Origin: a virus
IMG/VR virus record: IMGVR_UViG_3300025098_000084
Location: 1 to 46,060 of that record
Reading direction: 5' to 3' (one strand)
DNA length: 46,060 nt
Below, piece by piece: positions 4,346-42,200 of the stretch. The stretch's first letter is position 1. Every line of letters starts with the position of its first letter. A program made the translations under genes and the position numbers. The notes beneath the pieces were generated by a model that saw only the letters and a program-made list of their open reading frames with translations, had not been told where the DNA came from and ran no database searches.

Positions 4346-4792
4346 TTATGAAGTTGCTACTACTATAATTCCTGCTGATTCAAAGCTAACAGAATAAGTG
4401 GCTTCTCCATTATATTCACCTGCATATTCTAAAGATGTAACTTGAAACTTACCTGTAAACTTGAAAAAATTTGGTATAAAAAATTCAAAATCTTCAAATT
4501 CAGGTACGTTAGCTGTTGTACCATTATCAGCAAAATGTAATTGATTTATATATGCATCTTTTAAAAGACCTTCAGTAGTGCTATCAGTAAAAACTCCTGA
4601 GCCACTGATGCTGATGCTATTAACACCACCACCTGCTAAAAGTGTTCTATATCCTGAAGAGTCTTTATTTGTAACATCTACTGATTCATCATTTAATGTT
4701 ATTGAAGATGATCTCAAACCTCCAATAGTAGTTTGTGTACCACTACCATTGTCTATTTTTATTAAGACCTCTTTACCTTTTTGTGCCGCCAT
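4346..4792 (-). CDS. major tail tube protein (TP901-1-like family)
   Basis: The 148-residue product has the hallmarks of the TP901-1/phage-tail-2 major tail protein. The N-terminus has KGKEVLIKIDNGSGTQTTIGG followed by SSSITLNDESVDVTNKDSSG, and the C-terminus has SLEYAGEYNGEATYSVSFES, the usual pattern of this family. It polymerises to form the tail tube around the tape measure. It sits after the DUF3168 terminator-like gene and before the chaperones, as expected. The ATG at 4792 has AGGAG about 9 bases upstream. Confidence 0.9.
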   Translation of the reverse strand: MAAQKGKEVLIKIDNGSGTQTTIGGLRSSSITLNDESVDVTNKDSSGYRTLLAGGGVNSISISGSGVFTDSTTEGLLKDAYINQLHFADNGTTANVPEFEDFEFFIPNFFKFTGKFQVTSLEYAGEYNGEATYSVSFESAGIIVVATS

Positions 4793-5221: not shown

Positions 5222-5649
5222 TTCAATATGCCTTTTCTAAATAATGCTTCTATCTTTCTTTTATTCTTTTCTAATGCAGGTTGCATAAAGGGTCTTTCAG
5301 TCATATTAGTAGTACCAAACTCTAAATGCTTTGAATATGGTGCAGATGAAATTATTTGACCAATCACTGTACCATTGGGTTTTACATCTACATCCATTGT
5401 TATGTTACTAGCTAAAAATCCTGTATCACTTGCAGGTGGTTCATTAGGTGCAGATGCTGTATGTGTTCTTCTAGGCTCGTACTTTTCGTAAGTCCTACCT
5501 GTTCCACCTGATAAAATACTTTTTTTAGCATCATTATGAACCATCAATGTTCCACGAGTTACATATTCTTTGACTTTATTATCTGCAAGTCTTTTATTTA
5601 GTTTTTTATTAAAAGCCTTTAATTCAGTTATCTTTAAATCAATACTCAC
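5218..5649 (-). CDS. HK97 gp10-like head-tail / tail completion protein
   Basis: The 143-residue protein has the HK97 gp10 pattern: an N-terminal helical Lys-rich region, RRTHTASAPNEPPASDTG in the middle (the family's conserved H-x-A-S-x-P-G-x-P-P-x-x-x-T-G loop), and YSKHLEFGTTNMTERPFMQP near the C-terminus (E-x-G-T-x-x-x-x-x-R-P-F). It joins the neck to the tail. Start and stop overlap both neighbours by 4 bases, so translation is coupled. Confidence 0.9.
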   Translation of the reverse strand: MSIDLKITELKAFNKKLNKRLADNKVKEYVTRGTLMVHNDAKKSILSGGTGRTYEKYEPRRTHTASAPNEPPASDTGFLASNITMDVDVKPNGTVIGQIISSAPYSKHLEFGTTNMTERPFMQPALEKNKRKIEALFRKGILK

Positions 5650-14813: not shown

Positions 14814-15276
14814 TTATATTAATGTTATCCGTAGATTCTCCTAAAGCTAATTTTGCAAATTTCTGCGTTTTTAAAGCAGAACTTGCCATTGAGTCTAATT
14901 GTTGTGGTGTAAATTCTTGAATAGAAGCGTTTTGTGTGTTTCTTATTACTACGCCCACCCTAGAAAGTAGTGCTTTAGCTATATTTAAACATGCTGAGTC
15001 AAGCTTTTTAGCTTCTACAGAAAATTCTTTAATTCTTTGTGCATCTAATTTTTCTTCGTAGTCTCTTTGAAATTTTTCTTGTGCAAACTTCCAATTTTCT
15101 CTTTGTGCTAGTTTATACAGCGTATTTTTAGATAAATTATTATCTAAGGCTAATTCTTCTATAGTAGAGCATCTTCTAAAGCCTTGTGGGTCTAGGTCTC
15201 CCTGCACATAAGATATTCTAAGCCTTTCTTTAATATCAGATGTTATTTTTTTATATTTAGGTTTTTTATTCGCCAT
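14716..15276 (-). CDS. terminase small subunit (putative)
   Basis: The 186-residue protein lies directly before the large terminase and overlaps it by 98 bases. Residues 30-70 hold a helix-turn-helix (STIEELALDNNLSKNTLYKL) followed by RENWKFAQEKF, a pattern seen in small terminases that bind the packaging site. A long helical region (70-150) would form the oligomer, and the C-terminus is polar. No cos or pac site could be placed from sequence alone. Confidence 0.75.
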   Translation of the reverse strand: MANKKPKYKKITSDIKERLRISYVQGDLDPQGFRRCSTIEELALDNNLSKNTLYKLAQRENWKFAQEKFQRDYEEKLDAQRIKEFSVEAKKLDSACLNIAKALLSRVGVVIRNTQNASIQEFTPQQLDSMASSALKTQKFAKLALGESTDNININGNIQENDTFARAMELLDTIEDSRSKGSSTTH

Positions 15277-16477
15277 TTTTTGTATCTTTATGTAATTCTA
15301 TTAGTTCGTCAAAAGTTTCGTTAGATGATTCTAATATAGCTTGACTACCCGTATAGTTCTGCCATCTTTTTATAGTCACATCACAATATTTAGGGTCTAG
15401 TTCCATTCCATAACAAACCCTTCTGTTCTTCTCACAGGCTATTAGGGTACTTCCTGAACCTAAAAAGTAATCTGCTACTTTAGTTTTACCCTCTTGATCT
15501 TTTAATGCTATATCAATTAACTCTACAGGCTTCATCGTGGGATGTAACTCGTTCCTTTGTCTTTTAATCTTCCAAACGTCTCCTCTAAGGGTTTTATGAC
15601 CACCAAAGTCTCCATAATATAGTATTAGCTCATGTTGTTTATAATATTTATCTAGATGCTGTGCAGGATTAACTTTATCCCAAACTATCATAGCCTTAGG
15701 GCTTCTACCTATTTTTATCATAGCTTCTTTGAATAAATGTACATATTGCCAAGAACAGCACACATACATCTGTTCACACCCATGTATAGTCTGAGTAAGA
15801 AAGTCTACAAAGTCCTCATCAGACATTTTGTCATTTTTGATTTTTTCATGCTTACCCTGAAGGTCTTGATAGTCTATGTTATACGGTGGGTCTGTAAATA
15901 CTAAATCTGCTTTATTATTATCCATAAGCTTATCTATATTATCTATACTAGCACTATCACCACACATAATTCTGTGATTACCTAAAATCCAAACATCACC
16001 TAATTTAGTAATAGGTTCGTTTTCTAAGGCAGGAGCTTCATCTTCATCAGTTAATCCTTCTTCAGCAAATTCATCTAAATCAAAATCTAAACCTAGATCA
16101 GCCAATTCCTCATCCGTAAAACCTGTAAAATCTAAGTCATAATCTGCTTGTAATAAATCAGTCATTTCTTTTGTAAGTAGTCCATAGTTCCAAGAAGCAA
16201 ACTCAGCAGATTTGTTATCCATGATTCTATAAGCTTTAATTCTTTCTTCAGATAGATTCTCTGCTATTACACAAGGTACTTCTTTTAGACCCAATCTTTT
16301 AGAAGCATTAAACCTAGTATGTCCCACAATAATTTCATAGTTCTTATCTAAGACTAAAGGCTGTTGAAAACCAAACTCCTGTAAAGACTTTTGAACTACT
16401 TCAATTGCATCTTCATTAACTCTAGGGTTATCGTTATAAGGTTTTATAAGATTTATATTTACATCTGTAACTTTCAT
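15266..16477 (-). CDS. ParB-like nuclease domain fused to DNA methyltransferase
   Basis: I start at the ATG at 16477 because GGAG lies 7 bases upstream; an ATG at 16519 has none. The 403-residue protein has a ParB/sulfiredoxin domain at about 3-95 (NINLIKPYNDNPRVNEDAIE and GHTR at 52-55). An acidic linker follows, then an amino-methyltransferase domain with DPPY at 196-199 and FLGSGST near 338. DPPY before FxGxG is the beta-class order of N6-adenine or N4-cytosine enzymes. It methylates phage DNA, likely for protection or to mark DNA for packaging. It is the first leftward late gene and overlaps the small terminase by 11 bases. Confidence 0.92.
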   Translation of the reverse strand: MKVTDVNINLIKPYNDNPRVNEDAIEVVQKSLQEFGFQQPLVLDKNYEIIVGHTRFNASKRLGLKEVPCVIAENLSEERIKAYRIMDNKSAEFASWNYGLLTKEMTDLLQADYDLDFTGFTDEELADLGLDFDLDEFAEEGLTDEDEAPALENEPITKLGDVWILGNHRIMCGDSASIDNIDKLMDNNKADLVFTDPPYNIDYQDLQGKHEKIKNDKMSDEDFVDFLTQTIHGCEQMYVCCSWQYVHLFKEAMIKIGRSPKAMIVWDKVNPAQHLDKYYKQHELILYYGDFGGHKTLRGDVWKIKRQRNELHPTMKPVELIDIALKDQEGKTKVADYFLGSGSTLIACEKNRRVCYGMELDPKYCDVTIKRWQNYTGSQAILESSNETFDELIELHKDTKNGE

Positions 16478-16622
16478 AGAATCTCCATTTAAGATGGATA
16501 TTACCACAGAATAATCCAAAACGTAAAACCATCAAATAAATTAACTATTCCAATTTGGTTTAAGATATGTTATAATGGGTTTGGGACGAAGTATTTTTAA
16601 TAAAATGAAAAAGGAGAATTAA
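16478..16622. promoter_or_regulatory. divergent control region between late and early genes
   Basis: This 145-base gap separates the leftward ParB-methyltransferase from the first rightward early gene. Rightward, TATAAT at 16571-16576 has TTCCAA at 16548-16553 with a 17-base spacer. The word CCAATTTGG lies at 16550-16558, overlapping the -35. Rightward translation uses AGGAG near 16614. A leftward late promoter must also lie here or rely on an activator; I see only weak boxes for it. Confidence 0.6.
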
Positions 16623-16889
16623 ATGAAAAAAAGATACAAAATGCCTTCCTTACATAAGGAAGCAAAAAAGAAGAGGGACATAGTAAGATTTTACAATGAC
16701 CCTCAGAGAGCTAATAGACTATCTCATGGTTATCATCATTTCCAAGTTGGTCAGATAGGTTGGAAGTGGGTAAAGATTAGACCTGCTGTACTTAGCACTT
16801 TTAGAGAGAACCATTGGACAAAAATCAAAAGAACTACTTGGGATAGAATCCAATCATGCAAAACCTTCAAAGTATTGGAGGTAGCATGA
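16623..16889 (+). CDS. small basic hypothetical protein, first early gene
   Basis: The 88-residue product is rich in Lys, Arg, His and Trp (HKEAKKKRDIVRFYNDPQRA, then QVGQIGWKWVKIRPAVLSTF). Its charge suggests a nucleic-acid contact, but no family is recognised. AGGAG lies 6 bases before the ATG. Its stop overlaps the start of the zincin gene (ATGA). Confidence 0.65.
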   Translation: MKKRYKMPSLHKEAKKKRDIVRFYNDPQRANRLSHGYHHFQVGQIGWKWVKIRPAVLSTFRENHWTKIKRTTWDRIQSCKTFKVLEVA

Positions 16890-17584
16890 GGGATAAACAA
16901 AGACAAAAAGTCTATGACTGGGAAGATTCTCAGTCATGGATGGTTAAGAAAAGTTATCTGACTCAAGATCAATGTCATGCAGTAATTAAAAGATTAAACA
17001 AAATATTTAAACGTAAAATAACCCTTAGATTTAAAAATGGTCATGGAAAATGTTTTGCTAATCGCTATGAGATTGTTATAAGGAATGAATGGGGTAGATC
17101 TTATGGAGTCTTGCTACACGAATATGCTCACCATCTTAGTGCTGATTTACATGGTCGTAAATTTGTTGCAGAGTTCTGTATGCTTTTACATTACTTGCAC
17201 CCTGATCAACCATCTATAAAAGATTTGGTTGCAAGTATGAATAAAGCTAATGTTGAATTTTATGATTTTGAAAGAACCATTTGTAATAAAAGATTGAGTA
17301 GAAGACTAAAGCCATTTAAAGCTGTATGTACTACTCCAATACCTGAGCCTAAAAGATATATTAAGAAAAGAACCTCACCCAAACAAAGGGTGAAAAAACT
17401 TTTAGATAAGTGGGGTGAGTTCTATCATATTAATGAATACGAGTTTTACAGAAACAAGTTCGTAAACATAAATGAAAAAGAATACAGTGGTGAACTTTAT
17501 ACATGGAAAGAAGTGGAAGAGTGTCTACTTGAAGCGATTGAGCAAAAGCTACATGAACACGAAGATTATCAATGGAAGGAGTAA
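16886..17584 (+). CDS. putative zinc metallopeptidase (HExxH zincin)
   Basis: I start at the ATG at 16886, which has GGAGG upstream and overlaps the previous stop; the longer form from 16856 lacks this. The 232-residue protein has HEYAH at 78-82 and a third ligand in H89-G90 (SADLHGRKF), a pattern H-E-x-x-H-x6-H-G like short phage and actinobacterial metallohydrolases. The C-terminal third is basic and Tyr-rich. It may be a host-directed protease or an SprT-like factor acting on DNA-bound proteins; the target is unknown. Confidence 0.7.
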   Translation: MRDKQRQKVYDWEDSQSWMVKKSYLTQDQCHAVIKRLNKIFKRKITLRFKNGHGKCFANRYEIVIRNEWGRSYGVLLHEYAHHLSADLHGRKFVAEFCMLLHYLHPDQPSIKDLVASMNKANVEFYDFERTICNKRLSRRLKPFKAVCTTPIPEPKRYIKKRTSPKQRVKKLLDKWGEFYHINEYEFYRNKFVNINEKEYSGELYTWKEVEECLLEAIEQKLHEHEDYQWKE

Positions 17585-17675: not shown

Positions 17676-18386
17676 ATGTCTATAGAATGTCTAAACAAAG
17701 CACTGAAGATTCAATTTGAAGGTCAAACACCAACTAAGAGATTAATCTTAATCTTACTAGCTAACTACTGTGATGATCAGAATAGTTGCTATCCTAGTTA
17801 TACTCATATCGCAAAGTTAGCAGGTCTAAAAGACCCAAAGCATATTGCTAAGATTGTAAAAGAGTTTGAGAGTCTAGGTCTTTTAAAAATACAAAGAAGG
17901 TTTAAAGATGACGGAGGTAATACATCTAATAGGTACTTCCTGACCCTTAGGTCTACAGACACCCCCCCTCATGGTCTAGAGACCCCCACCCCCCCTAGTC
18001 CTGAAACCCCTAGCCTACTGGTCTCCACCCCCCCCAATACTAAAGAAGACACAAAAGATAAAACTAAAGATAATACTAAAGCCTATAATTCTGATTTTAA
18101 AAGCTTTTGGTCTTTATATCCAAGAAAGGACAATAAGGCTAAAGCAGAAGAATCTTATAAATCTATATTAAAGAAGTTTAGCCATGAGCAGATGATTGCC
18201 TATGTAGAGAGTTACAATAATGATATAGAGTTTCAAAAGAAAGATAAGAAGTTTATTCCCTTTTGCACCACTTGGCTAAATCAAAAAAGATTCTTGGATT
18301 ACGAAGATTATGAAATGCAAGAGATAGTCAAAGATTCACAAAGCACCGTTGAAGGCAACTGGTTTGATGATTTAGAAGTAGGCTAG
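17676..18386 (+). CDS. replication initiator-like protein with winged helix (lambda O-like)
   Basis: The 236-residue protein has an N-terminal winged-helix domain (about 15-90) with ILLANYCDDQNSCYPSYTHI and AGLKDPKHIAKIVKEFESLG, as in phage replication initiators. Next is a Pro/Thr/Ser linker (about 90-120), then a C-terminal domain with FKSFWSLYPRKDNKAKAEES, common in phage O-like proteins. It probably binds the origin and recruits the host helicase, since no polymerase or helicase is encoded in the window. The linker DNA is C-rich with repeats and may be the origin itself. A DnaC or P-like loader was not seen. Confidence 0.8.
   Translation: MSIECLNKALKIQFEGQTPTKRLILILLANYCDDQNSCYPSYTHIAKLAGLKDPKHIAKIVKEFESLGLLKIQRRFKDDGGNTSNRYFLTLRSTDTPPHGLETPTPPSPETPSLLVSTPPNTKEDTKDKTKDNTKAYNSDFKSFWSLYPRKDNKAKAEESYKSILKKFSHEQMIAYVESYNNDIEFQKKDKKFIPFCTTWLNQKRFLDYEDYEMQEIVKDSQSTVEGNWFDDLEVG
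17948..18036 (+). repeat. GGTCT...C7 repeats, putative origin iterons inside the initiator gene
   Basis: Three copies of GGTCT followed 6-10 bases later by a run of seven or eight C are present: GGTCT at 17950, 17973 and 18020, with C-runs at 17962-17968, 17989-17995 and 18028-18035. Two copies also share AGAC between the elements. The stretch is strikingly GC-rich within an AT-rich genome and uses CCC for Pro where nearby genes prefer CCT or CCA. Lambda carries its iterons in the same place within gene O. Function is inferred. Confidence 0.5.
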
Positions 18387-18389
18387 ACC

Positions 18390-19064
18390 ATGCTCCAAGA
18401 TTACAGCGTAAGGCAATTAAACAATCACGAATACAGAGACTGGTTGTTAAATAAGCACTATGCAAAAAGACTATGTTCAGTTTCTTATGCATTTGGTCTA
18501 ATTGATTTAGATCAAAATGTAGTAGGGGTTATAACTTTTGGATGTCCACCTAATAGGCTTTTTAATGATGGTAAGTGTATATTTAGTAATATAAAAGTTA
18601 AGACTATGGAGCTTAATAGACTTGTGCTTAATTCTGATACTCCTAAAAATTCAGCAAGTTTTTTTATTATGAAAGCAATAAATAAACTACCAAAACCCCT
18701 AGCAATTGTTAGTTATGCAGACCCAAATAATCATCATCATGGTTATGTTTATCAAGCAACTAACTGGTTGTATACAGGAACTAGCACCCCCAAGTATAAA
18801 TATACATTTGAAGATGGTTCAATTAATGACATTAGAAGAGATCAGGATTCAACTAATATGCATACAAAATTCATCAAAGGTAATGTAGTTAGTAAAGAAG
18901 AAATGTTACCCACTTATAGATACATCTATATTCATGCAGATAAGCGTGATAAAAAAAATCTTGTTAAAGATATGAGATGGGATATAGAGCAATATCCCAA
19001 AGGTTTAAATAAAAATTATGAGTGCATTGATATTAAAATGAAAGCACAGTTAGACTTATTCTAA
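18390..19064 (+). CDS. Mom-like DNA adenine hypermodification enzyme
   Basis: The 224-residue protein matches the phage Mu Mom family, a GNAT-fold enzyme that adds an acetamido-type group to adenine N6. Visible marks are HYAKR at 23-27, the FGLIDLDQNVVGVITFG strand pair at 35-51, MELNRLVLN at 73-81, and SYADPNNHHHGYVYQATNW at 108-126. Modification protects phage DNA from restriction enzymes. It follows the initiator by 3 bases in the same early operon, so DNA could be modified as it is made. No Com-like translational activator is evident. The C-terminal 80 residues are more divergent. Confidence 0.85.
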   Translation: MLQDYSVRQLNNHEYRDWLLNKHYAKRLCSVSYAFGLIDLDQNVVGVITFGCPPNRLFNDGKCIFSNIKVKTMELNRLVLNSDTPKNSASFFIMKAINKLPKPLAIVSYADPNNHHHGYVYQATNWLYTGTSTPKYKYTFEDGSINDIRRDQDSTNMHTKFIKGNVVSKEEMLPTYRYIYIHADKRDKKNLVKDMRWDIEQYPKGLNKNYECIDIKMKAQLDLF

Positions 19065-19358: not shown

Positions 19359-20111
19359 ATGAGTAGCAACAATCCATTTGACCAATTTGATATAGAGCAT
19401 CTTTCATCTAGTTCTATTAATCTTTACATGCAAGACATACCACTTTTTATAGTTAGGTATCTTGCTAAACATAAATCACCTACTAACTCTGCAATGCTTA
19501 GAGGAACTGTTATAGATCATGCTATAGGAGAGAAGCACAGCGTTAAGGAAGCACAGAAAGAGTTTATGAGTCTTATGAACTACCATAAAAAGGAAGGCGT
19601 TACGTTTGACGAGGTGAAAGCAGAAACGGAATATAAAAACATAGAAAAGTATTTAGAAGTTGGCTTACCCTTTTATGAAGAGTTAGGTGAGCCTGTTTCT
19701 TATCAAAAAAAGGTAGAACTAGAGTTTGATGATCTACCAATACCAGTTTTAGGATTTGTTGATTTAGAGTATGAAGATTGTATTAGGGATATTAAGACTA
19801 CTGCAAGAAAACCTTCTGAATTACTACCACCAGTTCAAAGGCAGATAGCAATTTATGCTACTGCTTTAGAAAAAGATCGTGCCTATGCCGATTACCTTTA
19901 TGTAACCAAAACGAAAGCAGAGGTTATAACTTTAGAGGTAGACGATATAGACATGAGATTAAACGAGGTGTACAGGGTCGCATCAGCAATGATGAACCTT
20001 TTACAAAATAATGATATTTATTCTTTAGTAGATCAGTTCTATCCTAATCCTGACTGGATGTGGAGTTTATCAGATATTGAATTTGCTAAAGACTTATGGA
20101 GAATAAAATGA
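19359..20111 (+). CDS. PD-(D/E)XK exonuclease (RecB/Cas4-like), recombination
   Basis: The 250-residue protein has the RecB-family nuclease motifs in order: LSSSSINLYMQDIP near the N-terminus, H54 in RGTVIDHA, D135 in GFVDLE, D144 and K146 in RDIKTT, and the QRQIAIYA helix with Q162 and Y166. No iron-sulfur cysteines are seen. It probably resects double-strand ends for the annealing protein encoded next, forming a two-part recombination pair like lambda Exo and Beta. It overlaps the next gene by 4 bases. Confidence 0.88.
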   Translation: MSSNNPFDQFDIEHLSSSSINLYMQDIPLFIVRYLAKHKSPTNSAMLRGTVIDHAIGEKHSVKEAQKEFMSLMNYHKKEGVTFDEVKAETEYKNIEKYLEVGLPFYEELGEPVSYQKKVELEFDDLPIPVLGFVDLEYEDCIRDIKTTARKPSELLPPVQRQIAIYATALEKDRAYADYLYVTKTKAEVITLEVDDIDMRLNEVYRVASAMMNLLQNNDIYSLVDQFYPNPDWMWSLSDIEFAKDLWRIK

Positions 20112-20761
20112 AATACGAATTAACTTTTGGACAAGTATGGAAAACACTATCTAGTGTTAATGTAAATGAAAAAACTGATAAGAAGATGAATCTTACTTAT
20201 CTATCGTGGGCTTGGGCTTGGGGTATCTTAATGGAGCATTATCCTTTTGCTACTTATACGTTTGACGAAGAAGCCACTAGTTCTAACGGAACTGTTATGA
20301 CTAACTGCACTTTAACTATAGGTAACTTAGAAAGAAGCATGTTTTTACCTGTAATGGATTATAAAAACAACTCAATAGCTAACCCAACCTCTAGACAGGT
20401 ATCTGATACTAGAATGAGATGTTTAGTTAAGTGCATGGCTATGTTTGGTCTAGGTCACTATATATATGCAGGTGAGGAGCTTCCTGATAGTAAGGTAGAC
20501 GAAGCTGAAGCTAAAGTTGTTCCTGTAGAGGTAAAAAAGTTTAAGTTTGAAAAAACAGGTGGAAAAACTTTATCAACTAACGATATAGAAGACTATCTTT
20601 TAATATTAGCTTCTAATCTAAAAGACCCTGATAATGTTCTACACAAGAAATCGTTTGCAACCAATAAAGCAAATATACAGGTAGCGTTAGCATCTACTAG
20701 TGACGATGATACTAATAATACTAGATTGAAGAAGCTTATAAGTCTTTATGAGGTAGCATGA
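20108..20761 (+). CDS. single-strand annealing protein, Sak3 / DUF1071-like
   Basis: The start is taken at the ATG at 20108, with GGAG 7 bases upstream and overlap with the previous stop. The 217-residue protein has MNLTYLSWAWAWGILMEHYP, the DUF1071 opening, then LPVMDYKNNSIANPTSRQV and MRCLVKCMAMFGLGHYIYAG followed by EEL. These fit the Sak3 family of phage annealing proteins, which pair single strands left by the exonuclease. The C-terminal 60 residues are polar and may bind SSB or the nuclease. Confidence 0.85.
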   Translation: MKYELTFGQVWKTLSSVNVNEKTDKKMNLTYLSWAWAWGILMEHYPFATYTFDEEATSSNGTVMTNCTLTIGNLERSMFLPVMDYKNNSIANPTSRQVSDTRMRCLVKCMAMFGLGHYIYAGEELPDSKVDEAEAKVVPVEVKKFKFEKTGGKTLSTNDIEDYLLILASNLKDPDNVLHKKSFATNKANIQVALASTSDDDTNNTRLKKLISLYEVA

Positions 20762-21060
20762 TGATAGAAGTACCACAAAGCATTAAAGATAAGCCTAAAA
20801 GCAAACTTACTATAGATGATTGTGTATTCCTATGTCTTAGAAAAGGAAAGTATATGAGCTTTTGGCATATACAAGGAATGATTAAACAAAATGTAGGTAA
20901 GTTCTATGGCGAACCTACAATCTCAGCTTCTATAAGAAATATGAGAAAAGACTATTGCAGGGAAGCTTATGGGCTTCCTATGTATGGAGAAGTCATAGAA
21001 AAAAGAAAGATTTGGAATAGCAAAGGTTACGAATATAAATTAATTACTAAAGGAGAATAG
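20761..21060 (+). CDS. small winged-helix-like protein, hypothetical
   Basis: The 99-100 residue protein starts at tandem ATG codons (20758 and 20761) overlapping the previous stop, with GAGGT upstream. Residues 18-75 look like a winged helix: TIDDCVFLCLRKGKYMSFWH, then a recognition-like helix EPTISASIRNMRKD. The end GYEYKLITKGE would be the wing. It may regulate the recombination genes or bind DNA with them. No named family. Confidence 0.6.
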   Translation: MIEVPQSIKDKPKSKLTIDDCVFLCLRKGKYMSFWHIQGMIKQNVGKFYGEPTISASIRNMRKDYCREAYGLPMYGEVIEKRKIWNSKGYEYKLITKGE

Positions 21061-21061
21061 A

Positions 21062-21526
21062 ATGACTGAATATGCGAAGAAAGATAAGAAAGGAGCTATG
21101 TGGAAAGAAAACAATTGTAAGGTTGTTTGGAAAGGGTCTATGCACCACAAGAAGAACCCTGAAGACCCTAATGATAGGGGTGTAGATAAATATTATAGTA
21201 TTTTAAAAACTATTATTAAGGACAAGTATGGAAATGAAAAATCTAAATTTGAACTTGTTCAATCTGTAGGTCTACTATATTTAAAAGATGACAACTTTAA
21301 CACTAATGGGAATCCACCTGATATTGGCGGTCCGGTTACAGTTGATCTTGGAAATGGTCAAACAGTAGGTCAAAAGTTTGGTGGATGGCTACAAACTAAT
21401 GCAGAAAAAGGTACTCAATATTTAAGCGTAGGTCTAGTAGATTCACATAAAAATAAAGAATCAACATCAGATGAAGAGATGTTTCCATCCAGTCAAGATT
21501 TTGATGATGATCAAGTTCCTTTTTAG
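21062..21526 (+). CDS. SSB-like single-strand DNA-binding protein (putative)
   Basis: The 154-residue protein has a mostly beta body (residues 15-125) and an acidic disordered tail ending SQDFDDDQVPF, which closely mimics the SSB tip DFDDDIPF that docks repair and replication enzymes. It sits between annealing and HNH genes, the usual place for a phage SSB. The body does not match a canonical OB-fold motif by eye, so it may be a diverged class. The stop overlaps the GTG of the next gene. Confidence 0.65.
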   Translation: MTEYAKKDKKGAMWKENNCKVVWKGSMHHKKNPEDPNDRGVDKYYSILKTIIKDKYGNEKSKFELVQSVGLLYLKDDNFNTNGNPPDIGGPVTVDLGNGQTVGQKFGGWLQTNAEKGTQYLSVGLVDSHKNKESTSDEEMFPSSQDFDDDQVPF

Positions 21527-21879
21527 TGTCTAAAAGACTTGTAGATAAGAAACATCTTATGTGGGTTAGAACCCTGCCCTGTTTTATAAGCAGAGCAGGG
21601 TTTTTATCCTGTAGTGGTTCTGTACAAGCACATCATCTTCTTAAAGGTTACGATACGCCTAGAGGGGTCAATGGTCGTGGCATGTCATTAAAAAATGGAG
21701 ATGATCAAGTTATACCACTCTGTCAAATGCACCATCATTTACTACATACTAGATATGGAAGTGAAAAGGCTTTTTTTAAAAAATATGGTATCAAAGAAGA
21801 TGCAGGTAAAAAGTACGCAAAACAACTTTATGAAGAAAAAGATTGTTATGTAGAAGATACTAGTGATCTGCCTTTTTAA
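21526..21879 (+). CDS. HNH nuclease, Ref/DUF968-like, with SSB-like tail
   Basis: The gene starts at a GTG overlapping the previous stop. The 117-residue protein has LMWVRTLPCFISRAGFLSC, VQAHHLLKG, a DDQVIPLCQMHHHLLHTRYG core and KAFFKKYGI, typical of the Ref/DUF968 HNH proteins linked to recombination. The metal-binding and catalytic His residues are present. The C-terminus VEDTSDLPF again looks like an SSB tip. It may nick recombination intermediates or process DNA at SSB-coated sites. Confidence 0.8.
   Translation: MSKRLVDKKHLMWVRTLPCFISRAGFLSCSGSVQAHHLLKGYDTPRGVNGRGMSLKNGDDQVIPLCQMHHHLLHTRYGSEKAFFKKYGIKEDAGKKYAKQLYEEKDCYVEDTSDLPF
21572..21605 (+). terminator. intrinsic terminator-like hairpin inside the HNH gene
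   Basis: A 10-base stem (CCCTGCCCTG, 21572-21581, with CAGAGCAGGG, 21591-21600) has one mismatch, a 9-base loop and is followed by five T (21601-21605). This has the shape of a rho-independent terminator for the rightward transcript. Lying 46 bases into the gene, it could limit full-length HNH messages unless ribosomes follow closely. Confidence 0.5.
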
Positions 21880-25022: not shown

Positions 25023-25401
25023 ACTGATTTGGATTAGTTAAGGCTATAAGATCATCTTTTACTTTCTTAGTGCCTTTATTGACTATATTTTCTATTAACT
25101 TAGGTTTAGCTAAAGCAAGATTATCAAGGTCATGTTTAGCAAAGGTATTTTTTAATTTATTTACTTCTCTTTGTGCTTCTTGGTTCTTTGCAGTTAGAAC
25201 ATTTACTTGCTCTTGTGTCTGTTTTTGTTTTTCTATATTTTTTTTTATAGACTCATTTTGTTGTTCTATAGAATTTTCTAAGGCTATCTGATTACCTTTT
25301 AAAACTGCTATTTGATCTTGTAACTTGTTTATATACCATGTGCTACTTGTAAGGGATATTAGCAGTAAGCCACCTAATGCTAACGATAATTTGAACCCCA
25401 T
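24997..25401 (-). CDS. inner-membrane spanin (i-spanin, Rz-like)
   Basis: The 134-residue protein has an N-terminal membrane anchor (about 4-24, LSLALGGLLLISLTSSTWYI) and a long Gln/Glu/Lys coiled coil (25-90). The conserved-looking part is NTFAKHDLDNLALAKPKLIE then NIVNKGTKKVKDDLIALT. This is the layout of Rz-type spanins. It overlaps the cyclase gene end by 22 bases and the o-spanin start by 26. Confidence 0.75.
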   Translation of the reverse strand: MGFKLSLALGGLLLISLTSSTWYINKLQDQIAVLKGNQIALENSIEQQNESIKKNIEKQKQTQEQVNVLTAKNQEAQREVNKLKNTFAKHDLDNLALAKPKLIENIVNKGTKKVKDDLIALTNPNQFDEKPNNS

Positions 25402-27158
25402 GTATACACCTGTAATTTTTCGCTTTTACCTTTAGCCTGAATTGGTTCTAAAGATGTTAATTCTAATTTTATAGCATTTTTTGTTGTTTGACCAATTAGC
25501 AAATCTACACCTGCTTGTTTTGTTCCTGATTCAAGTCTTGCCGCAACATTAACAGCATCACCTATAGCAGTATAATCAAATCTATTTTTAGAACCCATAT
25601 TGCCTATAACTGCAAATCCTGTATTTATTCCTATACCTATAGTAACTGGTGTAATCCCTTCATCTACTAATACATAATTTAGCTCATGCATGTTTTTCTG
25701 TATATCTATAGCACATTCTAATGCCTTTGTTTCATGGTCTTCTAGATCTATAGGTGCATTAAATATAGCCATCATTGCATCACCTATATATTTATCCACC
25801 ATACCTCCATGTTTTTGCACTGCTTCTTGTTGTGCGGTTAATGCTCTATTCATAATGTATGTTACTTGTTCAGGCTCTAATGATTCTGATAAAGCTGTAA
25901 AACCACGAACATCTGTAAATAAAAAAGTTGCATAACGTCTTTCACCACCTAATTTTAATAAACTAGGATTATCTTGTAATTTTTTGACCTGTCTTGGGTC
26001 AAGATAGTGTTCAAATTGTCCTTTAATTTGTTCTCTTAGTCTCCATTGCTCTCTAAATCTTATATATAAAGCTATAGAGCCTGTTATAAACTGTGATATC
26101 AATGACCAAGTGACATCTATTAATATTCCCCTGTGGATAAGTCCATATCCTGTATAAGCTGTGGACAACATTATTAATATAGCTAATATAATCCCCCAAG
26201 TAACACCAAAAGCGTTCAATACAAGCCATATAAGGCTTACAGAAACGATAAATATAAGTATTTCTAAGGCTAAAGCCCAATCAGGTATATAAGGGCTATC
26301 TTCTATAAGAATTGATTCTGCTAAAGCTGTCTGTATCTTATGTGGTTCTAATAATCCTACAGGAGTAGCTATCTGTGGCATTACTCCATTTGCAGTTACT
26401 CCTATAAATACAAATTTACCTTCTACGTTCATTTCTTTAAGATCTGTTTGTGGTGTATCTACCCAACTAATCCACTTACGACCAAGACTGTCTGTTTTTA
26501 TAGGTGGTATTCCTCTGATTGATATTTCTTCTATACCATTATCATTAGTTTTTATAATATAGGTTTTTACACCAAATAGAGCTTTATATATTTGAGTGCC
26601 GAATGCAGGAATCCATTCGTTATCAGGAGTGTTTACTAAAAGGGGTATTCTTCTTACTAATTGATCTACTTCAGTGGGAGCAATGGCTAGACCCTGCAGT
26701 GTATTATCTTTTAGAGTGTTCAGGTTTTCCTTGACTCCCATACTTACTATACCACTAACATCATTGCCTTTGACAACTGTTCCAGTGGATTTAGGGTAAT
26801 TATTTTTACCATCTTCAAACATTGCAATCACAGATGGTGCGTAACTTAATGCTTCTGCAAAGGCTTCATCACCACCTAGTCTGTCTGCCTGTGGAAAAGA
26901 TATAACCCAACCAACGCCAATAGCACCTTTATTAATAAGATCAACTTGTATTTCAGCTAATCTTCTTCTAGGTAAAGGATAGCCACCCTCGTTTTCTACA
27001 TCTTCTTCTGTAATGTTTAGAATTACAAAGTTACCTGATGGGTTGTATTGTTTGACTAAAGCATCAAAGGTTCTTAGTTTTATTATTTCAGTAGGTGTAC
27101 TTTGAAATATAAGTGGAAGTGATAATAGTATAAGTATTGATAATATAAGTTTTTTCAT
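25380..27158 (-). CDS. CHASE2-domain transmembrane class III adenylate cyclase
   Basis: The 592-residue protein has an N-terminal anchor (3-20), a periplasmic CHASE2 sensor (about 25-290) with FVILNITEEDVENEGGYPLP and PRRRLAEIQVDLINKGAIGV, three membrane helices (about 293-314, 318-338, 346-366), a linker and a C-terminal cyclase domain (405-590). The key residues are all present: metal Asp 416 (FLFTDVRGF) and Asp 460 (KYIGDAMMA), base-selecting Lys 456 and Thr 530 (RFDYTAIGD), and transition-state Asn 537 and Arg 541 (NVAARLES). Lys and Thr point to ATP, so it should make cAMP in the host. Its ATG overlaps the FecR-like stop (TAATG). Such an enzyme is out of place in a phage late operon. Confidence 0.95.
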   Translation of the reverse strand: MKKLILSILILLSLPLIFQSTPTEIIKLRTFDALVKQYNPSGNFVILNITEEDVENEGGYPLPRRRLAEIQVDLINKGAIGVGWVISFPQADRLGGDEAFAEALSYAPSVIAMFEDGKNNYPKSTGTVVKGNDVSGIVSMGVKENLNTLKDNTLQGLAIAPTEVDQLVRRIPLLVNTPDNEWIPAFGTQIYKALFGVKTYIIKTNDNGIEEISIRGIPPIKTDSLGRKWISWVDTPQTDLKEMNVEGKFVFIGVTANGVMPQIATPVGLLEPHKIQTALAESILIEDSPYIPDWALALEILIFIVSVSLIWLVLNAFGVTWGIILAILIMLSTAYTGYGLIHRGILIDVTWSLISQFITGSIALYIRFREQWRLREQIKGQFEHYLDPRQVKKLQDNPSLLKLGGERRYATFLFTDVRGFTALSESLEPEQVTYIMNRALTAQQEAVQKHGGMVDKYIGDAMMAIFNAPIDLEDHETKALECAIDIQKNMHELNYVLVDEGITPVTIGIGINTGFAVIGNMGSKNRFDYTAIGDAVNVAARLESGTKQAGVDLLIGQTTKNAIKLELTSLEPIQAKGKSEKLQVYTWGSNYR

Positions 27159-30997: not shown

Positions 30998-33900
30998 CTA
31001 TATTGTTGTTATTATAAAACTTAGCAATTCGTTATATCTTACACCAAGTCTCGTTTGTTCTACACCATCATCATCTTCCCAAGTGCTAGAGATAAACATC
31101 CCATAATCACTTGCATCCAATCCTTCTGCTGTAAATGCATCTTGTAAGTCTTGTGCTATGACTCCAAAATGATATCTAGCTGTTTCATCAGAATCAGAAT
31201 TATCATCTTTTTCTGCTACTGAATCTTGCCATCTAAATCTTCTTATTAAACCTTTACATGCTGTAGCAACTCTTTGCTCTGCATCTGTTAAGGCTTGTAT
31301 GTCTTGTTTTTGATTTCTGTCTGAAGTTTGTATAGTTCCATTAGTTGCATAGATGTCATCAAATCTTGCACTTGATGCACCTAAATCTATTTTATCATCT
31401 GCTGTAGCACCATCACCAGTTGCAGGATATATAGCTTGGTAAGTTGTATAATTTAAAAACTTTAAGCCTGTTTTGTAAGAACCGCTACCGCCAATTATAA
31501 AAGAGTTAGATGTGTTGTCTTGTGGTCTTGTACCAATACTGCATACAAAGTTATCGTTATGGTCAACAAAATCCAAATAAGTACCATTAGTATTAATAGA
31601 GCTTTTATTTTTAATAGTAGCTATAGGATTGGTTGCACTGCTTTTAATACCCTCTATCTGTGCTTTGGAATCTGTTGTAAATAATCCTTCTGAGGTAAAT
31701 GTTCCTTCTACTGTTGCATTGCCTAAAGATAGGAATGAAGCCATCTCAACATTGCCTGAGAATTCAGCGTTACCATCATTTAATTGAAATTCAGCAGTTC
31801 CAGTTTCATCGTCCTCATAAATTCTAAATCTTGGTGCTACTATTCTAATATCACCAAAACCACTACCACCTTTAATTCTATAACCAGTAGAGTGTAGTTG
31901 TATCGTTGATTGTGTAGGTGTTAAAGCCAGTAATCCACTACTTGTAATAGCACCTGAATTTATAGTTCCTATGTTGGTTAGGTTTCTACCACTTGATATA
32001 ATCTGTGTAGAACCCATTTTAATATTGCCATCAATATCAATCTCTAGTTTTGGTGATGATGTACTTCCATTTGTATAAAATTGTAGTTTTCCTGATGTGT
32101 CTCCACCTTGTCCATAACCTGCAATAAGTTTTAATGCCGCACTTGATGCTGATGCACCTGTTCTTAAAACTAAAACTTCAGAATCATTTTGACCACCTTC
32201 ATCACCTAAGAAATGATCGCCTTGCCCAAAAGTAACGCCATCTGCAACGTGAATACCACCTGTGGTAGCTGTAAATCCTCCTGCAACACTAAAATCACCA
32301 TCAGAGTTAAGAGATAACTGTTCTTGTGGATTTCCTGCTTCATAGGTATGCACTGTTAATAACTTGCCACTTGGTTTTCTCATATCAGTACCTGATGTAC
32401 CCGAGCCATCATACTGATAAAAATGCATACTTCTCATACCATAGGTAGAATTAGCATTTGAATTATTTAATTGAACAAATCTCTCAAAAGCAACTGGTTC
32501 TGAAGTATTTTCGGATAAGTATGTATATATACTTGCTTTTTTTGCTCTTGATGATTGTGATAAAGTCACTCTATCACTTATATCCCAACCAGTTGTTGCG
32601 TTATATGCGGTTAAAGCATTTGCAGTATATGCAGAATCATTTGGATTTCTAATTTTTACAACTTGTGAAGTTGTGCCTGAATTACCATCACCTACAGCAT
32701 CAATAAAACTAAGATTTTTTAAATTACGAGAGGAGTCTATTACTGTTGTTCCTGATATTCTATATTGAGCTGTACTAATATTTCCAGATACCACCATAGA
32801 GTTATCTCCTGCATGTAAGTACATTACATTAGCAAACCCACCATGAGCCGGACCTTTATAAAATATTAATTTGTCATCATTACCTCTGTCTGATATGCCC
32901 CAACGTATATTTGCATCGGTATATCCATCTCCATATCCAAAGAATATTTCTGAAGTATGTGAAGAACCTGCTGAATTAAGATGAAATTCACCCCTACTAC
33001 CTGTTCTAAAACCTCTTCCAAGTAATGAGCCATTTATTGTTGCATTACCACTAGAGATAGTTCCTATGTTGGTTAAGTTTCTTGAGGAGTCTATGACTGT
33101 TGTGCCTCCTAAAGCATAAGAGCCAGAAACATTCCAAATACCTGATGCACTAAGTTTTCCATATACACTGCCACTAGCATTTGCAAGAAGTGCGACACTT
33201 CCATAAGATAAAAACTCCATAACACTACCAGTAGCAAAAATATAACCTTTATTAGCGTTCCCATGTCTAAAACCTATTAAAGAACTAGAGACTCCATCAA
33301 GGTGAATAGTTGCTCTATTAGTCGCACTCCAAGGAGAACTTGTACCACTTATACTTAAGTTGTGACTATTACTTCCTAAATCAGAAGCTCTAATAGCATC
33401 ATTAGAGACAATTCCTGCAAAGGTGGCGTTTTGTGATGCGTCTAATGTAAGTGCTGTTTCCCCATTTGATGTTTGAAATACTAAATATCCATTTTCATGT
33501 ACTGCATCAATATAATTGGCACTACCTCTGCCAAAATTCATTCTTGCACCTTCAGAATTAACTGACCATGTGCCTAAAGAACCATTTAAAGTAATAGAAT
33601 TAAGATTGGTGAGGTTTCTTGAGGAGTCTATTACTGTTGTTCCATTTATTCGTAGACCGCCTGCAAGAATATCTACACCATAACCAACTGTTGATCCATT
33701 ACCTACTTGGAATACATCTGTTAATGAAGAAGCATTTGTAGGTTTATTTTGGAATCTAATAAAACCTGAAGCACCTCCACTACCACGATAGAATGTCATA
33801 TTTGCAACTTCTACACTATTTCGTCCTGATACCTTAGATACTGGTACATTTCCTAAATCTTGTCTATTATTATCAAGTCTTAGTTCATTAACTCCATTTT

Positions 33901-36900
33901 GGTTATTAAACAAATCTATTAAGTTTGCACCTGTAGATATTCCTGTTCCTGAGATAGTTCCTATATTAGTGAGGTTACGAGAGCTTGTAATAACTGTTGT
34001 AGCCCCCATTTGTAAAGCACCATTATTTATGTTTACATTACCTGCTTCGTTAAATTCGGCAATAGTGCCTATAGAACCAGTACCACCTGCATATACTCTC
34101 CAATTATCAGCATCAAATCTTAAGGTTGCATAAGTTGAATTACCCTTCTCTAGCTGTTGACCAATATTAGTGCTTCTGTTACCTATTGTTGATGAACTGG
34201 TTATAGAACCTGATGAGATATTTCCTGCGAAGGTTGCGTTTCCATTTTCAAAAATTGTAAATAAATCAGTAGCACCATTGTTTTTGCTTACAATAAATCC
34301 TCTATCAGTTTGATTATTATCGTTATCAATATCAATACGAACACTTGTATTTGATTGAATCCAACCACCCACACTTGCGTCATTTAAAGTAAGTTTCCCC
34401 GTACTTGTAATAGCACCACTAGAGATAGTTCCTATATTTAATAAATTACGAGAGGAATTTATTATTGTAGTTCCTCCAATTTTATAGTTATAAGCAAAAA
34501 CATTTACCCAAATCTTATCTGATCTTCCTAAACTATATGAATTATTAGAATTAGGTGCAAAACCACCACCAATAACTAAAAGCTCATTACCACTTGGTGA
34601 AAGACCCATGTTTGCTGAACCTCTTACAAAAGCAATATGATTATCAAAGTTTGCATTGGTGACTGTAATTTTTTCTGTTGTAGATATAGCACCACTAGAG
34701 ATAGTTCCCGTATAAGCATTAAGAACTATTGGGTTAGAGCCATTTCCACCAATTCTCACGCCAGTTGAGCTATTTGAAGGTGACCATTGAAATTCAACAT
34801 TTGCACCATCTCTGTTAAATTGTGCCGCAGTCCAAGTAACATAACCGTCTGTGTAATAAGAAGAGCTTACAGAGGTTAAATTTGTTGCACCCCTACTTGC
34901 ATTTATAACTGTAGTTCCATTTATTGAAACTGTATTACTTCTTGCTGTACCTGAAAGGTAGAGGTCTTTGAATCTTTGACCTGTAGCACCTAAATCAATA
35001 GTTCCATCAGCAGAATTTCCATTATATAAAGGATATAAACCTGTAGCTTGGAAACGTATACCTGAGTGGTTAGTACCACCATTTATGTTTAAGTCATCAC
35101 TTGCAGTTCCAATACTGCCTTTTCGCGAACCATTAATTCTAAAGTCAATAATTCTTCCATTAGCATTTTGTCTATTTAGATATAGTGAAGTATTATTATT
35201 GGTTGATATTTGTAATTGACCAATAGAGCCACCTGCAACAATACCAGTTTCATCTGTATTGTCATCATATATTTGTGAATCAGTAGTACCACATAAAAAA
35301 TTGCCCGATGTATCAAAACGTCCTCTCTCTGATGCATTTGCTGTAAATGTAAGCTCTGCACTTGCTTGTAAAAGTAATTGACCGCCACCGCCACTTGATA
35401 CAGCCAATGCACCTGATTCATTTTTTACCGCATTTGAAAGGTAAAGGTTTTTCCATCTTGCTGTAGAATATCCAAGATTTTGTACTCCATCTTCAAAAGC
35501 ACCTGTTGAAGTACAAGGTGCTACAATTTCACTAGCGAAAACAATACCTGAGTCACTACCATAAGGCGAGTGAATGTAAAGTCCGCCACTACCACCAGTA
35601 CCAATAATACCTACGGTTGAGTTATCTTTGCGGAACTGTGCTATAGTGCCATTAGAAGTTGTTCTGTTAAGGGTTAAAGGCTGTGCAGACGCACGAGTTG
35701 ATATTAAATCTCCGTCTGGACGCATTTCTGCACCTACAGTTGACGCTCCTGCCGCTGAATTCTTACCAACTAAAAAATTACCTGCATTATCAAACCTTCC
35801 AACCTCACTAGTATAGGCATAATTATTAGTACCACCTGTAGCAAAAACAATCCCTGATCTAGACATTAAAGATAGTTTGTCACTATCCAATACTCCAACT
35901 GCCATTAATGGTGCATCACTTGTTGTTCTACTAAATGATATTCCAACACCTTCATTTGCTATAGTTTGATGATTTAATGCTAGTGTTCTTAAATTTTTAT
36001 TTGTTCCAACACTACTCGTTATAGCACCACTAGAGATAGTTCCTATATTAGTGAGGTTTCTTGATGAGTCTATTACAGTTGTTAGCCCTTGTTTTAGTGA
36101 ATCAACACTAACAGCACCACCAAAATCAGCAGTTGTACCATCTAGATTGCCTATAACTTCAACAGCACCATTGAAGGTAGCGTTGCCTGATTTACTAATA
36201 CTAACAAGCTCTGCATCAACATTTGCACCGCCAATAACAAAGTTATCAGTTGCATCATCATGTCCTATTGTGTATTGAGCAACACCCGCATTGAAAAATT
36301 TAATCTCTGTATCAGAACCACTAGGAGCATCTAATCTTATTCTTGCATCACCTGAAGCAGAAGTAATATCTAACATTTCTGTCGGAGTCATTCCTATACC
36401 TACTTTACCTGCAAAGGTAGCGTTTTGGTCATGGTTTAATCTTAATGCTTCGTCTAAAGTGGGGTTATTTTGCGAGACATTGAAAGATAGTCCTGTACTT
36501 GAATCTGAATCACTTGACATTTCCCTTCTAGCGACAATAGAAGCACCTGTTAGACTGTCACCTGCTGAATTATTACCTGCTAACTTAAATTCAATTCCTA
36601 TGCCTGATGCTGTAGTTTGATTTACAGTATTACCTGCATCTATTCCTGCAACTGTTAAAGGAAAATAAATAGTATCAGCAGTTATTTGTTTAGTAGCTGT
36701 TATAACACCACTAGAAATAGTTCCACTACTTGTAATAGCACCACTAGAGATAGTTCCTATATTAGTGAGGTTTCTTGATGAGTCTATAATTTTTGTCCCT
36801 GCACCTGTTCCACTTGAAGGTTTTACATATAAACCCTCTTTGAACATTAACTTACCATCTGCAAGAATAGTTGTAGTAGATTCAGTTCCACCAATAGTAA

Positions 36901-39273: not shown

Positions 39274-42200
39274 TCAAGCTTCTATTCCTGATACATTAAA
39301 TTTAAATTCTGTTGAAGCAGACTGATTGGGGTCAATCAATAATCTTATATTTCCACCTGAAATATCGGCATCAAAAGTTGCTAACGAAGTATTTGAAAAT
39401 ATCGTTGCATATTCCGTCATATAGACTGTAGTTCCATTATGCGTTAAAAGTATCTCTGTTGCATGAAAATTAGTGCTTGATTTAATTTGTACTAAAACCT
39501 TTAGTGTTCTATAGGTGGTTGCACTAGCAAGTATTCTATTGGTTACTGAAGCACTTGTAGTTGTTAAAGTGGCTACATCTTGACCTATTAAGGCATCACC
39601 TACCCTTATGGTAGAAAAGCCTGATATCGTTTGTCCTGATTGGTCTGTAGTAATACCACCACTAGCAGTTATTTGTTGACCTACGTTTAAATCATTAGTT
39701 ACAGTTACATCATTTGCAAAATTAGCGTTTTTAGAATTGTTAAAAGACAAAGCATTTGCACCATCCATTTTAAATGTTATAGCAGTATTAGCTTCACCCG
39801 TATTTGTATCTGCTTCAAAAAGTAGACTGCCATTTTCTGCACTTATTTTTGCTTTTCTTGATGTTGCTTGAGAATCTATAAACTCAATACTAGGTGTTGG
39901 TGCTTGTAATGTAATTTGATTTCCACTACTTGTTGTATTTACTATTATATTGCCTGATGAGATAGTTCCTATGTTGACCAAGTTTCTATCAGTTGTAAGG
40001 AACTGAGTGCCAGTCATGTAAAGACCTAATAATGATCTAAAATGTATTGCCGCCCAGTCTAAAGAAGCATTTGCACCACCAATATAGAGTGTTTTATTAC
40101 CATCAGTTGTTGGTCTTATGTAACTAGTAGTACGATTCATTTCTAAACCATAACCCTGCAATGTCATATAATCAGAGCCATAGTAAGCTCTTAGAAATGC
40201 ACTATTACCACTACTACCTGCTGTAATATTTCCTGAATTGATAGTACCTGCAAAACTAGCGTTTTGTGAACTATTTATAGTAAGAGCGGTTTGTGAGTTG
40301 GTAACAAATTGCATGTAGTTACCATTAATGGCATATAAAATTTTACCAAGTGCTTCTGTTGTATTGTCACCAAAACGTATATCTCCACCACCCGAACCTG
40401 ATGCACCTTCTAATCTAATTTGTGACCAACCATCTGATTCTTTTAAATGTATTCCTCTTGTCGGTGCTGTAGTGCCAATACCTAATCTTTCAGTTGATGC
40501 ATCCCAAAGTAGTTTTGCTGTTCCTGTGTCGTTATAGAAAGATATGTCTCCACCATTATCTAACTTTATTCTGTTTAATGAGTTTGTACGTAAAAACAAA
40601 TCATCATCTGTAGAAGTTCGTATTACACCTCCACTATTATCAGTATAAATTTGTAATTCATTGCTTGTAGAAAGGTCAGTTAATTCAATCATAGGTGATT
40701 CAACACCATTAATAGTCAACCCATCACTTGTAACTGTACCTAAAATATCAGTACCGCTAGTTCTTACTCTTACAGCTTGTTGTCCTCCTACAAAAAATCT
40801 AAGGTCATCTGAAGCTGACTCTTGAATGAAAGTATTACTACCTCCGTCTAAATAAATTCTATCTGAAGCACCTACTTTAATTTCATCGGCTACAACTGTT
40901 CCTGTTACGTCTATGCCTGTAGATTTTGTTGCAATTTTTTCGCTACCATAATGAAATAACTTAGTTTCACCAGTAGAGCCATCTGCTCTAAAATAGTCTG
41001 TAGTGCCGCCACTTCCATTGTCTGATTGTATTGCAACATCTTGGTCGTCTGCTAAGTTTCTAATAACCAATGTATTTGTAAAATTTGCTATTAAACTATT
41101 ACCATCTGCAACATGATAAATTTGTAAATCATTACCCGTACCAAAAGTGCTTTTTGTTCCATCTTTAAAATTAAGCCTATCTTCACTAGCATCCCATACC
41201 ATGTTTTGTGATGTGCCACTGTCATCGTAGAAAGCTATATCACCATTTCCACCATTAATCTGTAGTGCATTAGTGCCATTTCTTTTAAAAGTATGATAGC
41301 CATTTTGTGCATCATAAATGATGCCTGTGTTAGAGCTTGATAACTCTAAATTTAATCCATTGTTATCTAAACTACCTACACCATCAACAGTCAAACCATC
41401 ACTTGTAACTGCTCCTGTTACATCTATAGCACCTGAATTGATAGTGCCAACAGTTATATTAGGAGTGCCTGATAAGCCTATTGCAGTTATACCTAGTGCA
41501 TTTATTTCAGCTTGAGTTTGATCTGTAGTTGCACCTGCTTCTATACCATCAAGTTTAGTTCCATCAGTAGCTATATCTCTACCATCAACTGTGCCTGTGA
41601 CTGATATGTTTCCTACAACTGATAGCTTTTCACTTGGATTCGTTAGGCCTATACCTACCCTACCATTAGCAGGTATATAATTTAATCCACTGCCTTTAGA
41701 AACCCAACCTGTAACATTGCTATAAAAAGCTACATAATTTCCTGTACCACTTCCATCTCCATTATATTCAAGTATAAAAGCATCACTACCATCTTCTCTA
41801 AACTTAATTTTTGGCTTATTTCCTGCATTATCATATAAATCAACAGTTCCGTTTGTACTTGTAATGCTACCTGTTGTACTAATAGAACCTGTAGCATCAA
41901 TAGCACCTGAATCAATAGTACCTGCTGTAATATTTCTTGCAGACGATATGACTGTTTGACCACCAATTTGTAAAGCACCAGTTTTTAAATTTACATCCCC
42001 TGTGCTTTTTATTCTGACTCTCTCAGAATCATTAGCGTATAAACTTAAGTCATTACCATTCACACCATAACCATGTGCAGAAGCTGTAGTGCTGTTATCA
42101 GCTACTTTTATAAATGCAGTTGCATCTGTACTTGAAAAAGTTGCAACTTGGTTAGTAGTTCCCGAATTAACAGACAAACCATCACTTGTAATAGCACCAC

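Follow-up and report, generated by a model that had tools for sequence, protein, structure and literature searches.

Mom proteins are phage enzymes that modify adenine in DNA and thereby protect it from restriction enzymes. Mom of phage Mu is produced late, under the control of C and Com; only small amounts are needed, and the enzyme becomes toxic when expressed too soon or too strongly (PMC4461284). How Mom marks phage DNA in good time and without self-harm is poorly understood. Genes for Mom also occur without either regulator, as was reported in 2013 for the Bacillus siphophage Riggi (PMC3853051), so that a Com-less mom in a siphophage is already known.

Proteins that bind the bacterial beta sliding clamp (DnaN) carry a short clamp binding motif (CBM). 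Natural forms are the pentapeptide Q-phi-x-[LM]-[FL] and the hexamer Q-phi-x-[LM]-x-[FL], with QLDLF the strongest pentapeptide according to a 2024 review (PMC11139829); QL[S/D]LF has been given as the bacterial consensus (PMC3716654). The motifs are often C-terminal, a location that they also have in transposases (PMC4549789).

Here we describe a Com-less mom gene whose product ends in QLDLF, and it is this clamp motif that is new. The gene was found in a window of 46,060 nt, positions 1 to 46,060 of IMG/VR virus record IMGVR_UViG_3300025098_000084.

The mom locus and its product

The window has a GC content of 34.6% and encodes portal, TerL, major head, tape measure and distal tail proteins, which supports its initial annotation as a siphovirus; the nearest capsid found is from a Rhizobium phage (47.8% identical). 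That annotation had also placed a Mom-like gene directly behind an initiator gene and noted a ParB-methyltransferase, reading the latter together with Mom as a hint that the phage DNA may be heavily modified. All three genes are present (Table 1), and just 3 bases separate the initiator stop codon from the ATG of mom. By inspection of its sequence, the ParB-methyltransferase has no clamp motif at its C-terminus. A fixed pairing of mom with an initiator was considered and is not general: outside four related loci (L003–L006), only one further locus (L038) has a nearby match to the window's initiator, and the neighbours of mom vary among relatives, including primosomal, DnaB, methyltransferase and TerL genes.

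Table 1. Features of the mom region, in window coordinates
Feature	Position	Strand	Basis or remarks
ParB-N6/N4 DNA methyltransferase gene, divergent	15266..16519	-	ParB_N 8.2e-12; N6_N4_Mtase 1.7e-21; TDPPY motif
Two ORFs of unknown function (16623-16889, 16856-17584), upstream, co-directional	16623..17584	+	Conserved in L003-L006
Gene for a replication initiation protein, immediately preceding mom	17676..18386	+	HTH_36 4.2e-9; phrog_270 4.5e-42
mom gene (Mom-family GNAT-fold DNA modification enzyme)	18390..19064	+	224 aa; ATG to TAA, frame open
Mom catalytic core, residues 5-204, ends at YPK	18402..19001	+	H23, R77, S90, D111, Y121, N125 align with conserved Mu Mom residues
C-terminal tail, 20 residues, GLNKNYECIDIKMKAQLDLF	19002..19061	+	Alignments with Mu Mom, from which it is absent
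C-terminal QLDLF, putative CBM	19047..19061	+	Exact match to strongest clamp-binding pentapeptide (PMC11139829)
Downstream early genes: exonuclease-like (19359-20111), Sak-type annealing protein (20096-20761), two unknown ORFs, HNH-like (21526-21879)	19359..21879	+	Pfam/PHROG matches

Some other features of the window deserve mention. Inside the initiator gene, at 17950–18036, repeated GGTCT-containing stretches are followed by long C runs, possibly an origin within the initiator gene as in lambda. Beside the lysis genes, a 592-aa protein (25380–27158, minus strand) combines CHASE2 (3.5e-24) and class III adenylate/guanylate cyclase (5.9e-20) domains and is apparently a phage-borne membrane nucleotide cyclase. 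Two giant proteins are encoded on the minus strand, one of 2746 aa (30998–39238) with a C-terminal endosialidase-chaperone S74 domain and one of 2149 aa (39274–45723).

The mom product truly belongs to the Mom family, a conclusion about which we have hardly any doubt. It matches the Pfam Mom profile PF25680 with E 5.7e-31 and 108 bits (curated cut-off 27.1), its residues 5–204 aligning with positions 2–202 of the 202 in the profile, and phrog_1384 (‘Mom-like DNA modification protein’) with E 2.9e-46. The Mu Mom structure (PDB 8bv8) is matched by sequence at E 1.1e-9, the two proteins being 27% identical. An AlphaFold2 model, built with 62 aligned sequences (pLDDT 90.4, pTM 0.86), has Mu Mom 8bv8 as its best structural match (Z 19.0 over 190 residues; Foldseek 6.5e-11), with other GNAT structures at Z 12.1 and below. 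The profile search that had been suggested for this gene thus returned Mom and not a different GNAT family, and membership of another such family is ruled out by the profile match together with the fold comparison.

The title of 8bv8 is ‘inactive mutant S124A’, and S124 (S114 of Mu Mom) aligns with S90 of the window Mom, which is invariant in 62/62 relatives. Equally invariant are H23, R77, D111 and Y121, aligned with H48, R101, D139 and Y149 of Mu Mom, which we take to be active-site residues. Because both fold and active-site residues are kept, the window Mom is very probably catalytically active. Adenine as its substrate, and the identity of the acyl group, are presumptive assignments. With only 27% identity to Mu Mom, the enzyme could add some group other than the carbamoylmethyl that Mu puts on adenine, or target another base; all five residues aligned with the Mu positions (S114 being S124 in 8bv8) are kept throughout the 62 relatives, which argues against this, and we give it a small though real chance. 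It would in any event be compatible with the clamp mechanism proposed below rather than compete with it.

The protein is accordingly a Mom, and its operon is not of the Mu com-mom type. The Com zinc ribbon PF10122 is absent from the whole window, while the same search recovers Com in Mu at 1.2e-10; the absence of a Com-like activator had been claimed at the outset, together with the view that regulation must differ from that of Mu. The latter is reasonable, although lacking Com does not in itself set this gene apart, given Riggi. The window Mom and Mu Mom share family, fold and catalytic serine, but the Mu gene is late, C- and Com-dependent and stops at YPK, whereas the window gene follows an initiator, has no Com and adds the QLDLF tail.

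The C-terminal tail and its conservation

The terminal YPK of Mu Mom aligns with residues 202–204 of the window Mom, which extends 20 residues further. Its QLDLF end fits the CBM definition Q-phi-x-[LM]-[FL] (PMC11139829). In the AlphaFold model neither helix nor strand is assigned over QLDLF, and confidence in the tail is fairly high (mean 88 over residues 211–220 and 76 over 221–224), so that the tail could pack on the Mom core. Chance occurrence of the motif was considered and rejected: mom is the only gene of the window that ends in this way, the other matches being internal or in small unsupported ORFs. A motif match alone is no proof of clamp binding, which we therefore word as a prediction; that QLDLF is a working clamp motif in this protein seems to us quite likely.

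Relatives were collected by scans of viral contigs, yielding 5, 80 and 80 loci, and by a scan of genome contigs, yielding 14 loci. In an alignment of 62 Moms, 34–91% identical to the window Mom, the motif anchors are retained as Q in 60/62, L in 56/62 and F in 55/62. Column entropies are 0.24, 0.64 and 0.79 bits at these anchors, and 3.31 and 3.39 bits at the two intervening positions. The linker preceding the motif is variable in sequence and nearly constant in length, as counted from the core (YPKGxNxxY). In two close relatives (L005 and L006), codon changes within the motif are synonymous only. Conserved anchors with free spacer positions, together with these synonymous changes, indicate that the motif is under selection.

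A Q..[LM]F sequence near the C-terminus was found in 61/75 distinct Moms and in 9/690 other ORFs of the same loci, and at least two of these nine ORFs are second mom genes. The motif occurs in 108/164 non-redundant Moms (about two thirds), 95 with the pentapeptide and 13 with a variant. Hexamer variants include QMVLEL (L113) and QLILGI (L116), comparable with QLVLGL of Pol IV. Some loci carry mom twice, in tandem or at a short distance, each product with a clamp-like C-terminus: L007 (4448–5095 and 5096–5770), L072 (8–664 and 637–1605) and L167 (3941–4600 and 5874–6647).

These data bear on the possibility that this is an ordinary Com-less Mom, which modifies DNA in bulk and untethered and has its C-terminal Q, L and F conserved simply for packing against its own core or dimer surface. 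The nearly constant spacing and the fairly confident model of the tail speak for this, as does the fact that many phages have Mom without the tail. On the other hand, the positions between Q and L vary freely, and the motif shifts between the very penta- and hexamer forms that are known from clamp ligands.

On a tree built from the core, with the tail excluded, the motif extends across most of the family; those without it are mainly the group of Riggi and Listeria phage A511, a group of ICP1- and T4-like phages and scattered rows. Mom homologues are widespread, with a relative in 303 phage records. For cultured phages, the motif was present in 0/18 reference Moms examined, and a query with the tail found no clear instance. 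Moms of Riggi, A511 and their relatives belong to the same family, being 36–40% identical to the window Mom, come likewise from tailed phages and, in Riggi, likewise lack Com; they have however a different tail (..LGERxKTK..FYE/FYQ) without clamp motif. Within this group, A511, Alsa_1, JeffCo and phiSA_BS1 encode a DNA polymerase A.

Methyltransferases and replication genes of mom-bearing phages

Clamp-type ends are also found on DNA methyltransferases of mom-bearing phages: QLTLF on two genes of L084, QTKLFL in L155 and QKRLF in L189, with further endings QQKLF in L065 and QLTIF in L143. Under one loose definition the motif occurs in 7/25 methyltransferases and 18/1545 other ORFs; these counts are from a stricter methyltransferase search, as a looser iterated search drifted into Mom at round three. 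In L069, an N6/N4 methyltransferase ends in QLRLI, a C5 methyltransferase in QLTIL and Mom in QLSIL. The same unusual aliphatic form in three families, written with different codons, points to one shared partner for the three enzymes. A separate case is L067, where a methyltransferase gene and the adjacent mom share QLRIPC plus stop, their last 21 bases (4617–4637 and 5250–5270) being identical; either the tail was copied or the assembly is at fault, and the case is not counted as independent.

If these residues did no more than pack against the Mom core, one would not expect the same ending on unrelated methyltransferase folds of the same phages, nor its unusual forms to co-vary as in L069. 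We therefore regard the untethered alternative as unlikely, and favour a tail that would bind the clamp.

Searches of the window, a record that may be incomplete, gave no match for Pol A, Pol B, Pol III alpha, a clamp or DnaB. As it has an initiator but no detected polymerase or clamp, the phage probably depends on the host replisome for its replication. More widely, a DNA polymerase A or B was found in 0/29 motif-bearing records and in 14/31 records without the motif (Fisher 2e-5, a value that ignores kinship and is drawn from incomplete records). When pairs independent on the tree are taken, 1–3 to 0 fall in the expected direction, which is not significant. Polymerase III alpha was found in 0/30 records searched, and the polymerase profile PF03175 is uninformative, matching none of the records searched. 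Individual cases include L041, nested in the motif-bearing part of the tree, where the motif is lost and polymerase A present, and L086, with polymerase B and no motif. Mu, P12002L and EauM23 have neither the motif nor a Pol A/B match, so the link between motif and polymerase is not strict, and the motif is not needed for Mom function.

Among the neighbours of motif-bearing Moms are primosomal proteins, DnaB, primase/helicase, Erf, terminase and methyltransferases; the 25 commonest neighbour families contain no polymerase. One motif-bearing record (L084) has its own beta-clamp homologue (PF02768, 29 bits; G013:C1:6746-7114) and a DnaB-like helicase; Pol A/B were not found there.

The tail might instead serve to occupy the host clamp against host replication or repair, or to take Mom to host forks, protection of phage DNA being secondary. 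The motif would presumably bind clamps at host and phage forks alike, and the toxicity of premature or over-expressed Mom in Mu (PMC4461284) would suit such an attack. Yet the Mom that carries the motif has kept its active site intact, and DNA methyltransferases have the motif too. Moreover, no record found to encode a polymerase had it, although obstructing the host clamp would still help there. We consider this use of the tail very unlikely.

Proposed mechanism and comparison with known systems

The reading that we favour, and hold to be reasonably likely, is that a clamp-tethered Mom modifies phage DNA in step with its replication. The phage would load the host replisome. Mom, encoded in the same operon as the initiator and presumably likewise expressed early, would dock on the host beta clamp through its C-terminal QLDLF and, riding on the clamp, would modify adenines of newly made DNA at the fork or a little behind it, leaving restriction enzymes no time to cut. 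Such an arrangement would work like the eukaryotic link between DNMT1 and PCNA, unlike the late, Com-controlled Mom of Mu.

The QLDLF ending is the most informative feature of the protein, giving a concrete idea of when and where it may act: it suggests, at the level of sequence, that the phages with this ending mark their DNA while it is being copied. If true, the tether would be an alternative solution to the problem of timing and targeting Mom, and would explain the usefulness of a Com-less Mom encoded beside an initiator. On balance we also lean towards a broader form of the proposal, in which phages that use the host replisome attach modification enzymes with unrelated folds (Mom as well as N6/N4 and C5 methyltransferases) by their C-terminal motifs to the sliding clamp, coupling protection to replication; prokaryotes would then have an equivalent of DNMT1-PCNA, one that is common among uncultivated phages.

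The tail resembles those of known beta-clamp clients, namely Pol II (QLGLF), UmuC (QLNLF), Pol IV (QLVLGL) and IS transposases, in having the same short, often C-terminal motif. Unlike Mom, these clients are polymerases or proteins of repair or transposition, and base-modifying enzymes would, if the tether is real, join the bacterial clamp partners. The words ‘methyltransferase’ and ‘methylase’ are absent from the 2024 review of beta-clamp partners (PMC11139829), and searches of the open-licence literature found no paper in which the beta clamp is linked to Mom or to methyltransferases of phages. A precedent for a sliding clamp that brings a DNA modification enzyme to newly replicated DNA is DNMT1, which carries a PCNA-binding motif (PMC9690074). 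The likeness is a functional analogy only: the enzymes are not homologous, their chemistry and clamps differ, and so does the purpose, inheritance of methylation for DNMT1 and protection from restriction for the Mom described here.
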